Part shown: positions 4,712 to 25,724 of the stretch, in pieces
How the letters are laid out: each line of letters starts with the position of its first letter
How positions within the stretch are numbered: the first letter of the stretch is position 1
From: Streptobacillus notomytis
GTDB lineage: Bacteria; Fusobacteriota; Fusobacteriia; Fusobacteriales; Leptotrichiaceae
Length of the DNA stretch: 35,978 nt
Direction: 5' to 3'
NCBI GenBank assembly: GCA_001612575.1
Contig: LJRV01000245.1
Span: 1 to 35,978 of the forward strand
The notes under the pieces: generated by a model
What the model saw: only the letters and a program-made list of their open reading frames with translations
What the model was told of the DNA's origin: nothing
The model's database searches: none
Translations under genes and position numbers: made by a program

Positions 4712-5230
4712 ATGAAAAAAGTTTTGTTTACATTTTTAATATTTTTTAATTTACTTAGTTTTTCAAGTACAAGTAAAGAAAGATATAGGATTGAAGGGAC
4801 TTTGGCATATGGGAGAAAATTTGCAGATGATAATAATAGTTCAGCATTTAATGAGTTAGATATTTCAGCAGGAGTTATGGTTGAATGGAAATATGGAATA
4901 TTAGAAAAATTAGATTTAACATTTGGACCAAAGGTTTCTTTGAGTGGACAATTTAATAAAGATAACTCAAGAATAGTTGGTGGTGGATCTCTTAATTTAA
5001 CACTTACAGGAGAGATCAACTATTTAATACATAAAAATATTAAGTTATATAGTGGAAGTGAATTAGGACTTGGATTATCGATTAGATATAAAAATAGTAT
5101 AAATGTAAAGCTTGAACCACTAGCTAAACAATCATTTGGAATTAAAATAGTAGATAGATATAACGTAGCTTTATTTGCTGGATATGGTAATAAGGGTATT
5201 GCAGGAATAGAAGCAGGATATACTTTTTAG
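4712..5230 (+). CDS. Small outer-membrane beta-barrel protein (paralog 1)
   Basis: 172 residues. It has an N-terminal signal peptide (MKK, then a hydrophobic core to about residue 18, with cleavage near LSFSS). The rest is beta-rich and ends in AGYTF, the terminal aromatic residue expected for insertion by the BAM machinery. I cannot assign a named family. It is clearly related to the two genes at 23973 and 24600, with shared segments YRIEG, LTFGPK, a HKNIKLYSGSE-like strand, YNVALFAGYG and a closing GIEAGYTF. A role as pore or structural surface protein is inference. GGGAGATATA precedes ATG 4712. It is transcribed alone, with a terminator directly behind it. Confidence 0.75.
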   Translation: MKKVLFTFLIFFNLLSFSSTSKERYRIEGTLAYGRKFADDNNSSAFNELDISAGVMVEWKYGILEKLDLTFGPKVSLSGQFNKDNSRIVGGGSLNLTLTGEINYLIHKNIKLYSGSELGLGLSIRYKNSINVKLEPLAKQSFGIKIVDRYNVALFAGYGNKGIAGIEAGYTF

Positions 5231-22988: not shown

Positions 22989-23513
22989 ATGAAAATTTCT
23001 GTTTATTGTGGAGCAAGTGTTGGAAGTAATGAAAATTTTGCTTTATCAGCAACTAAATTAGGGGAATTGATAGCAAAAACTAAAAATGTTTTAGTATATG
23101 GTGCTGGAAGAATTGGACTTATGGGATTATTAGCTGAAGCTGCACTTTCTTTAGATTGTGAAGTTATAGGTGTTATGCCAGAATTTTTAACTCATGGAGA
23201 AAGAGTGCATAATGGTCTTTCTAAATTAATTATAGTGGAAACTATGGCTGAGAGAAAAAAGATATTATTTGAAAGTGATATGTATATAGCTCTTCCTGGT
23301 GGAGTAGGTACATTAGAAGAAATTAGCGAAGCTTATTCTGGTGTTAGATTAGGATTAAGTAATTCAAGATGTGTACTATTAAATATAGATGGTTACTATA
23401 ACGAATTTATAGCATATTTAGATAAAATGGTAGAAAATGGATTTTTAAGTCAAAAAGATAGGGATATACTTGAAGTATATAATAGTATTGAGCAATTGGG
23501 TGAAAATTTATGA
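22989..23513 (+). CDS. LOG-family (TIGR00730) Rossmann-fold protein
   Basis: Members with known activity are phosphoribohydrolases that release a base from a nucleoside 5'-monophosphate (the plant LOG reaction on cytokinin ribotides). In most bacteria the physiological substrate is not known. 174 residues: ISVYCGASVGSNENF at the N-terminus, VYGAGRIGLMGLLAEAA, MAERKKILFESDMYIALPGGVGTLEEISEAY with the catalytic PGGxGTxxE from residue 103. TAGGAGGGTAAT gives a strong ribosome site. Overlaps the next gene by four bases (ATGA). Confidence 0.93.
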   Translation: MKISVYCGASVGSNENFALSATKLGELIAKTKNVLVYGAGRIGLMGLLAEAALSLDCEVIGVMPEFLTHGERVHNGLSKLIIVETMAERKKILFESDMYIALPGGVGTLEEISEAYSGVRLGLSNSRCVLLNIDGYYNEFIAYLDKMVENGFLSQKDRDILEVYNSIEQLGENL

Positions 23514-23869
23514 ATGAATATTTAGAATTGGTTAATAATGATGATTTTATAGATATTTGCTTATACCTAACAGAAGATAAACCTTATGAAATAGGTGAAA
23601 AAATGGAAGCTATAGATAAAAGAGCGTATATGAATGGTGAAAATTGGGCAGTTTTTTTTGAGTATTATGTAAAAACATATAGACCTGAACTTTTATTAGA
23701 TCTTCAACATGATTTTGATGCTGGAATATATGTAGGATTTTATATCTCTATACCAGAAAATATTTCAAGGGCTAAACAATATATGGAAATGATAAAAGAA
23801 TTATTGGAAAATGAAAACAAAATATATAGAATAATTAAAGAAAAAGGAAATGAAATAAATTGGAAATAA
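23510..23869 (+). CDS. Small acidic protein resembling the Imm51 immunity family
   Basis: 119 residues, acidic, no signal peptide or membrane helix. The pattern MNGENWAVFFEYYVKTYRPE, then LQHDFDAGIYVGFYIS and a C-terminal helix (AKQYMEMIKELLENENKIYRII) resembles the Imm51 class of polymorphic-toxin immunity proteins. The resemblance is from memory, not a search. It overlaps the LOG gene by four bases and is followed by a terminator. No toxin gene is adjacent, so if it is an immunity protein it is an orphan. A domain of unknown function with the same fold is equally possible. Confidence 0.6.
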   Translation: MNEYLELVNNDDFIDICLYLTEDKPYEIGEKMEAIDKRAYMNGENWAVFFEYYVKTYRPELLLDLQHDFDAGIYVGFYISIPENISRAKQYMEMIKELLENENKIYRIIKEKGNEINWK

Positions 23870-23870
23870 T

Positions 23871-23895
23871 AGAGTGTTATTAACGCTCTTTTTTT
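23871..23895 (+). terminator. Rho-independent terminator
   Basis: Stem agagtgtt (23871-23878) / aacgctct (23882-23889, one G-T) followed by seven T, directly after the stop at 23869. Confidence 0.82.
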
Positions 23896-23912: not shown

Positions 23913-23941
23913 TTGACAAATATACGGGGGGGGGGTATAAT
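23913..23941 (+). promoter_or_regulatory. Promoter with a ten-G homopolymer spacer, probably phase variable
   Basis: Consensus TTGACA (23913-23918) and consensus TATAAT (23936-23941). The 17-base spacer is aatatac plus ten consecutive G (23926-23935) that abut the -10 box. At this tract length the spacing is optimal; gain or loss of G by slippage would move it to 15, 16, 18 or 19. The promoter drives two outer-membrane protein genes. Confidence 0.85.
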
Positions 23942-23972
23942 GTTTCTGGAAAAAAATGATTAGGAGTATAAT

Positions 23973-24575
23973 ATGAAAAAGTTAATATTATCTATAATGT
24001 TGTTAATAGGTTTATTTTCATTCTCTTTTGAAATAACAGGACCAAGATATAAAATAGATGTTACTGTGGGAGCAGGATATAAACCAGATCCTCATGACAG
24101 GGAGACACAGTGGAAAAAATTTGTTGGAAACTTTGTAAATATAGATGCAGGTATAGGATTTTCTTCTGAATGGACAATTGAAATTAATAGAAAATTTGGA
24201 ATAACATTTGGACCTAAGATTACAACAAATATATTCACAACAACTTATGAAACATATATTGATTATGATATACATAGACAACTAGATTTTAGTCTTAGTA
24301 CAGGTATTAGAACAGATTTGGAATATAGATTAAAAAATAATATTAAAATATATACCGGAGTAGAAGCAGCTTTAACTGTAAGCCCGGATATACATATTTC
24401 ATATGCTTCTCCTGGTGAAAAAGGTAAAAGATATTTATATCTAGGAATATACCCAATAGTACTTGGTAAAGTTTCGTTAGGGTCAAAGATAAAGAAATAT
24501 AGTATAGGGATTTACACAGAATTTGGTTTTGGAAAACAATTAGTTGGTGGAGTAGAGGTAGGATATACTTTTTAA
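23973..24575 (+). CDS. Small outer-membrane beta-barrel protein (paralog 2)
   Basis: 200 residues. Signal peptide with MKK start and hydrophobic core to about residue 17 (cleavage near FSFS). The mature part begins ITGPRYKIDVTVGAGY, has strands such as FGITFGPKITTN and NNIKIYTGVEAALTV, and ends VGGVEVGYTF with the terminal Phe of BAM substrates. Related to the genes at 4712 and 24600, in the same order of strands. TTAGGAGTATA precedes ATG 23973. It is the first gene behind the poly-G promoter. Function unknown; a surface-exposed antigenic barrel would fit the control. Confidence 0.78.
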   Translation: MKKLILSIMLLIGLFSFSFEITGPRYKIDVTVGAGYKPDPHDRETQWKKFVGNFVNIDAGIGFSSEWTIEINRKFGITFGPKITTNIFTTTYETYIDYDIHRQLDFSLSTGIRTDLEYRLKNNIKIYTGVEAALTVSPDIHISYASPGEKGKRYLYLGIYPIVLGKVSLGSKIKKYSIGIYTEFGFGKQLVGGVEVGYTF

Positions 24576-24599
24576 AAATATAGAAAGGAAATATGAAAT

Positions 24600-25490
24600 A
24601 TGAGAAGATTAATTTTATCAATATTATTAATTATAGGTATAACTTCATTTTCAGCTAAGAAAGATAGACGAAATTCTGTATTAAATAAAAGATATGAAAT
24701 TAAGAAAGTTAGAGATAGAAAAAATAGAAAATCTGTTAATTTAAATAAAGAAAATACAGTTAAAGAAGAAAATATTATAGATAAAAAAGATTCTAATTTG
24801 AATAAAGAATTAGAATTAAATAAAGAAAATGAAGAGTCTAAAAAAGATATACAAGAAGATAAAAAAGATTTTAATTTAAATGAAAAAAATGTAATCATAG
24901 AAGAAAATAATATGAATACTAAAACTAGATTAAAAATAACAGGACCAAGGTATAGGTTAGAGGGAAGTATTAGTACATTACCTGTATATAATGATAAAAC
25001 TAAACAAGTTGGATATTATGCATATAAGTCACTTTCATTTTTATCTGAATGGAAAAAACAGGTTACTAAAGATATAGATATAACATTTGGTCCTAAATTT
25101 TCTGCTAATCTTATCTTTTCTAGGGATTATTCCAAAGAATTAGTTAAAGTAGATAAAAGTCAAATTATAAGTACAATATCATTAGGTACAGAGATTGATT
25201 TTAATTTTATGATACGAAAAAATGTAAAAATATATATAGGTTTAGAGACTTCAATAGGAGTAGGGATAAAAATTAATACTTTCAATGGTGCGGATGTATT
25301 ACCTGAAAAAACTAAAGAAGGTAGAGATATGTACAAGGTTTATTTTGATGATGAGATTTTTAAAAGTTTAAAATATATGTATATAATTAAGGGATCACTT
25401 GGATTTAAGATAAATGATAAATATAATGTAGCATTTTTTGCTGGACATGGTAAGGGGCATTTTGGGATAGAAATTGGTCATACTTTTTAA
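24600..25490 (+). CDS. Outer-membrane beta-barrel protein with long charged N-terminal region (paralog 3)
   Basis: 296 residues. Signal peptide (MRRLILSILLIIGITSFSA), then about 85 residues rich in Lys, Glu and Asn with repeated patterns such as NLNKE and KKDxNLN (about 20-108), probably an extended or coiled periplasmic segment. The barrel starts at ITGPRYRLEGS and carries the family strands DIDITFGPKFSAN, RKNVKIYIGLETSIGVG and YNVAFFAGHG, ending FGIEIGHTF. Only 24 bases follow the previous gene, so both share the poly-G promoter. I chose ATG 24600 because AGAAAGGA lies about 11 bases upstream; the ATG at 24593 is out of frame. Function unknown. Confidence 0.78.
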   Translation: MRRLILSILLIIGITSFSAKKDRRNSVLNKRYEIKKVRDRKNRKSVNLNKENTVKEENIIDKKDSNLNKELELNKENEESKKDIQEDKKDFNLNEKNVIIEENNMNTKTRLKITGPRYRLEGSISTLPVYNDKTKQVGYYAYKSLSFLSEWKKQVTKDIDITFGPKFSANLIFSRDYSKELVKVDKSQIISTISLGTEIDFNFMIRKNVKIYIGLETSIGVGIKINTFNGADVLPEKTKEGRDMYKVYFDDEIFKSLKYMYIIKGSLGFKINDKYNVAFFAGHGKGHFGIEIGHTF

Positions 25491-25620
25491 TAATATATTT
25501 TGTAAATATTTACATTTGTATAATGTAATTGCTTTTGATGTATATTTATGATAATATAGATTATAATATGATGACCTCAGATATTATTTTCTAGAATTAA
25601 GAGGCTATAAGCCTGATTAA
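25491..25620 (+). other. Intergenic region with a possible small RNA or leader
   Basis: No protein-coding frame is evident. It contains TATAAT-like boxes (for example 25562-25567), then a GACCTC...GAGG pairing and a perfect AGGCT-ATA-AGCCT hairpin (about 25602-25614), followed directly by the strong terminator at 25621. It has the shape of a short untranslated transcript, but I recognise no RNA family and no good -35 box. Confidence 0.25.
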
Positions 25621-25648
25621 AAAACCTACTTTTTTAAAGTAGGTTTTT
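25621..25648 (+). terminator. Rho-independent terminator
   Basis: Stem aaaacctacttt (25621-25632) / aaagtaggtttt (25636-25647) with T run. It ends transcription 130 bases after the outer-membrane gene pair. The acctacttt/aaagtaggt core recurs in the terminator at 29223. Confidence 0.85.
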
Positions 25649-25696: not shown

Positions 25697-25724
25697 TTGA
25701 CAAAATCAAATATGGGGGTATAAT
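25697..25724 (+). promoter_or_regulatory. Promoter of the fruR-fruK-fruA operon
   Basis: TTGACA (25697-25702), 16-base spacer, TATAAT (25719-25724). The spacer ends with five G (25714-25718) against the -10, echoing the ten-G promoter at 23913. Confidence 0.85.

Follow-up and report, generated by a model that had tools for sequence, protein, structure and literature searches.

A pair of predicted outer-membrane barrel genes in Streptobacillus notomytis stands behind a promoter whose spacer ends in ten G. This promoter is interpreted as a slippage promoter of the type reported for porA of Neisseria meningitidis and tp0126 of Treponema pallidum, and as one of a large set in Streptobacillus; the reading is given a probability of about 0.88. 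The window, i.e. the whole stretch of 35,978 nucleotides analyzed here, is contig C245 of a 1.73 Mb assembly in 823 contigs (GenBank GCA_001612575.1), and the features of the locus are listed in Table 1. Direct reading confirmed the layout described earlier from the letters alone: the promoter (23913-23941) is TTGACA-AATATAC-GGGGGGGGGG-TATAAT, with two perfect hexamers, a spacer of exactly 17 bp, and a pure homopolymer of at least eight G between -35 and -10 that directly adjoins the latter. The same reading had held that the run is not due to chance, and this is borne out by the shuffles, as the window has no second G10 and not one of 100 dinucleotide-preserving shuffles contained a G10. A further perfect TTGACA/TATAAT pair (25697-25724), whose 16-bp spacer ends in G5, precedes a DeoR-PfkB-PTS operon and is possibly a shortened relic of the poly-G design.

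Table 1. The poly-G promoter, the two barrel genes and the flanking hairpins in the window
Feature	Positions	Strand	Basis
Terminator-like hairpin ending the upstream Imm51-like unit	23871-23889	+	stem AGAGTGTT/AACGCTCT, then TTTTTT
-35 hexamer TTGACA, perfect consensus	23913-23918	+	read directly
Spacer, fixed part AATATAC	23919-23925	+	read directly
G10 tract, predicted slippage site; brings spacer to 17 bp	23926-23935	+	sequence, shuffles, ortholog comparison
-10 hexamer TATAAT, perfect consensus	23936-23941	+	read directly
Shine-Dalgarno-like AGGAG of gene 1	23962-23966	+	read directly
Gene 1, 200 aa, predicted 8-stranded outer-membrane beta-barrel with signal peptide	23973-24575	+	ORF, alignment, AlphaFold2, PDB matches
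Gene 2, 296-aa paralog; charged N-terminal insert, then the same barrel domain	24600-25490	+	ORF, alignment, profile
Terminator-like hairpin closing the two-gene unit	25620-25648	+	hairpin

The two downstream products had been taken for paralogous surface barrels, and this assignment is supported. Genes 1 and 2 are 31% identical and match one profile with E values of about 1e-53 each. In an alignment that includes 35 relatives, taken from this genome and two sister genomes, the motifs ITGPRY, LPEWK and FGPK and a C-terminal GYTF are shared, with ITGPRY and GYTF seen in gene 1. The AlphaFold2 model of gene 1, computed with the family alignment as input, contains a signal helix followed by eight strands (residues 20-37, 54-70, 75-93, 100-121, 124-144, 153-173, 176-185, and 188-199; mean pLDDT 81.8, pTM 0.71), and in Foldseek it matched OmpA, Ail, OprF, OmpX, and NspA, with PDB E values down to 1e-6. 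As modeled, gene 1 has the eight antiparallel transmembrane strands after a signal peptide that mark OmpA/OmpX/Ail-type proteins. Its likeness to the OmpA, Ail, OmpX and NspA barrels lies in predicted fold and export features, whereas sequence identity to them is only about 10-13% and curated families do not cover it: Pfam gave no match for either window protein and NCBIfam none for gene 1. A scan of 37 family members against curated families yielded weak, scattered matches only, e.g. OMP_b-brl, and by sequence the window proteins fall in no curated family of OmpA/OmpX/Ail-type outer-membrane proteins. From the signal helix, the 8-stranded model and the C-terminal Phe, the window promoter would control a protein predicted to be surface-exposed. 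The genes are 24 bp apart with terminator-like hairpins on either side, so the unit resembles a self-contained two-gene operon; co-transcription is likely, in line with the proposal that both barrels would be switched together. Directly 5' of the operon lies an Imm51-type immunity-protein gene (23510-23869), which has a lysine-decarboxylase-like gene as neighbor.

The genome contains 27 runs of at least eight G, and 23 of these are located in -35/-10 spacers, three are within barrel-family genes, and one separates a Shine-Dalgarno-like sequence from a start codon. Besides the window promoter there are 22 more poly-G spacer promoters, nearly all of them before surface proteins. The sequence-only reading thus was supported on the architecture, the barrels and the likely joint operon but missed the scale, with one switch seen against about two dozen in the genome. 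In the stretches of S. moniliformis (G095) examined, 35 of 39 runs are poly-G spacer promoters. The tract directly adjoins the -10 in 69 of 75 promoters of the genus; tract lengths range from 8 to 13 G, clustering at 9-11 G, and spacers from 15 to 22 bp. A strict form of the spacer pattern, searched phylum-wide in 98 genomes, gave 19, 19, 10, and 1 matches in four Streptobacillus genomes and one or two matches each in five other genomes, with no match to the reversed control pattern in the same search. The proteins 3' of the genus tracts group as 26 barrels, 25 YadA-like trimeric autotransporters, 8 classical (pertactin-type) autotransporters, and three smaller families with 7, 6, and 3 members. 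Judged from the sequences, the architecture would drive at least five unrelated exported families in the genus. All 38 runs of at least nine G on the S. moniliformis chromosome are co-oriented with replication, which is weakly unusual (P about 0.02); this leading-strand bias was set aside because some 90% of background genes have this orientation anyway. The literature searched, mostly without subscription papers, held no report of phase variation in Streptobacillus.

The barrels form an expanded paralog family: matches to its profile number about 40 here, 43 in S. moniliformis, 23 in genome G096, and 3 in genome G094, against 0-3 per genome elsewhere in the bacterial family. In the barrel arrays the G-tract is usually found before the first gene of a tandem set. 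One further member in the window (4712-5230, profile E 2e-38) is without a poly-G promoter, and another at C587:1503 is without a G-tract. Other barrel paralogs carry G9-G10 tracts in the 5' part of the coding sequence, mostly in codons of the signal peptide. The copy at C236:20764 (G10) is out of frame (OFF), and those at C236:18245 (G9), C497:9326, and G095:1437810 (G9) are in frame. These coding tracts may constitute a second, translational mode of switching in the barrel family, frame switching being the simplest reading. At C347:26577, a G9 separates GAGGAG (Shine-Dalgarno-like) from the ATG of a DUF481-like outer-membrane protein, where a change in tract length would alter the spacing of the ribosome site.

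Promoters of this kind are known from other phyla. According to PMC7864442 (citing Giacani 2015), poly-G spacing controls transcription of the outer-membrane protein gene tp0126, an OmpW homolog of T. pallidum, with an optimum at 17 nt. The tp0126 promoter shares with the window promoter the poly-G between -35 and -10 and the position before a small outer-membrane barrel, but belongs to an unrelated phylum and barrel family, whereas here both hexamers are perfect, the operon has two barrels, and the genome carries 23 such promoters. For porA, surface levels of PorA were reported as graded, 11G above 10G above 9G (PMC3639595); porA also has its poly-G in the promoter spacer, but is a single porin gene with the highest reported level at 11G and is unrelated in sequence. 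The opc promoter of N. meningitidis shares a homopolymer in an outer-membrane protein gene promoter and graded expression, but there the poly-C spans the -35, and its presumed effect is on a regulator, not on spacing (PMC7864442). The earlier comparison with porA and opc therefore stands for porA and is loose for opc.

In this genome the commonest spacing of ordinary TTGACA-TATAAT pairs is 17 bp. The share of poly-G promoters at 17 bp is 6/23 against 23/47 ordinary pairs in this genome (P 0.08, the shift not significant), 2/35 against 9/14 in S. moniliformis (P 4e-5), and 7/123 against 14/26 in other phyla among the matches listed (P 4e-8), with sites in one genome not being independent in these P values. 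A separate sample of Clostridia had 0/8 poly-G promoters at 17 bp. A dip exactly at 17 was considered, as the raw loci among the matches listed number 19 at 16, 7 at 17, and 30 at 18, but it was lost on genome weighting: the weighted sites, from a set that overlaps in part with the first, rise to one maximum at 18-19 and tail off to the left. What is claimed is therefore that 17 is underrepresented compared with ordinary promoters, and not that the distribution is firmly bimodal. The distribution looks as if the sequenced majority of poly-G promoters were off-optimum; the other reading is a longer optimal spacing for G-tract DNA. Published data point both ways, to 17 for tp0126 and to 11G above 10G for porA. 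Since most poly-G promoters of S. moniliformis and of other phyla are off 17, the 17 bp of the window promoter represents a minority state, and from its canonical spacing this promoter is predicted to be active (ON). The suggestion that the present length gives the strongest state is plausible in view of the tp0126 optimum and the peak of ordinary promoters, but meningococcal porA, in which 11 G exceeds 10 G, keeps it from being secure.

Tract lengths differ between orthologs of different species, and assembled homopolymer lengths may be off by one in this comparison. C236:56232 and G095:368792 have 10 and 11 G with 99.0% flank identity, C92:4357 and G095:480780 have 10 and 11 G with 97.9%, and C508:23488 and G095:1621895 have 11 and 10 G with 97.0%. 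The window promoter and its more diverged S. moniliformis counterpart (G095:112146) have 10 and 11 G with 89% flank identity; there the spacer is 19 bp and the place of AATATAC is taken by AATATACA. With the window pair excepted, indels outside the tract number 0-2 per 600 bp in the closest ortholog pairs. The differences between near-identical alleles that would mark a variable tract are thus found, between species only (97-99% flanks; 89% in the window pair). Some near-identical pairs have equal tracts, e.g. C92:36299 and G095:445357 (both G10), and one equal-tract pair is 99.8% identical. Taken together, the pairs point to the tract as a mutational hot spot between species; as the orthologs come from different species, the length differences could be fixed, and switching within populations is what we infer from them. 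The S. moniliformis ortholog of gene 1 (G095:112193) has an early stop near the C-terminal end and retains the poly-G promoter (G11, spacer 19).

In the proposed mechanism, G10 would be a slippage-prone tract within a consensus sigma-70-type promoter. Each G gained or lost through strand slippage at replication would shift the distance between -35 and -10 to either side of 17 bp, and the two barrel genes would be transcribed more or less strongly in a heritable and reversible manner. Most of the poly-G promoters of the genus would drive different exported or surface units, so that independent slippage at many of them would yield many surface combinations. An effect on transcription, and a benefit in host colonization or immune evasion, would be expected.

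Among the alternatives, the poly-G spacer could be a fixed structural or regulator-binding element, with stiff A-like DNA setting promoter strength and a length that is constant within the population. The near-constant junction with the -10, the clustering at 9-11 G, an ortholog pair of equal tract length, and the expression of T. pallidum tprL, which tract length alone does not fully explain, are all in keeping with such an element. However, tracts of 8-13 G and spacers of 15-22 bp are unexpected for a binding site, single-base differences occur between promoters otherwise 97-99% identical, and the coding tracts in related barrel genes, where frame switching is the simplest reading, favor switching over a protein-binding site; a fixed element is judged improbable. 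Little room is likewise given to a promoter cassette that hitch-hiked with duplicating paralogs, leaving an inherited tract without a switching role, and it is rated a shade lower. Many sites do stand before members of the same expanded families, but across the genus the architecture also precedes five or more unrelated families and it recurs in Bacilli, Clostridia, Saccharibacteria, Spirochaetes, and Helicobacter, some family members are without the tract, and at about 26% G+C an unselected tract of pure G9-13 should erode.

An assembly or sequencing artefact, such as dark-cycle poly-G or collapsed homopolymers, comes to mind with 823 contigs and several sites close to contig ends, but the same sites with matching flanks are present on the finished S. 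moniliformis chromosome of 1,662,578 bp, and the tracts lie exactly between two consensus hexamers, a placement that is not random; its probability is close to nil. The slippage promoter is the reading preferred over all three.

A wide genome scan found the same architecture, among the matches listed, in Bacilli, Clostridia, Saccharibacteria, Spirochaetes, Helicobacter, and others. Among these matches, 75 of 103 ORFs 3' of poly-G promoters begin with a hydrophobic N-terminus, compared with 149 of 568 control ORFs at the same loci. The single window locus joins a known promoter type; noteworthy are how large and uniform the Streptobacillus set is, and a rule that seems to hold across phyla. It is tentatively suggested, with somewhat less than even confidence, that poly-G spacer promoters are a repeatedly evolved general device for stochastic control of exported proteins, normally off-optimum in that assembled alleles keep away from the 17 bp favored by ordinary promoters, and the main surface diversifier in Streptobacillus, with about 23-35 promoters per genome that slip independently. 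The cross-phylum census provides a testable rule, namely that poly-G promoters mark exported proteins and, in S. moniliformis as in the other phyla that were sampled, mostly lie off the 17-bp optimum. Streptobacillus includes the rat-bite-fever bacterium. If the reading is true, this organism and its relatives carry a large, uniform set of promoter switches before much of their adhesin and barrel repertoire, and serology, the choice of diagnostic antigens, and strain typing would be affected. Among Clostridia sampled evenly the architecture is rare, with 7 of 391 genomes having it (centre genome included), and viral contigs gave two matches only, too few to be informative. An uncultured member of the Bacilli with a 1.0 Mb genome (G103; L102, L119, and L164) has 20 poly-G spacer promoters whose prefixes, e.g. 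TTGACAATGACACTCC, closely resemble one another, apparently an independent genome-wide expansion in an unrelated lineage.
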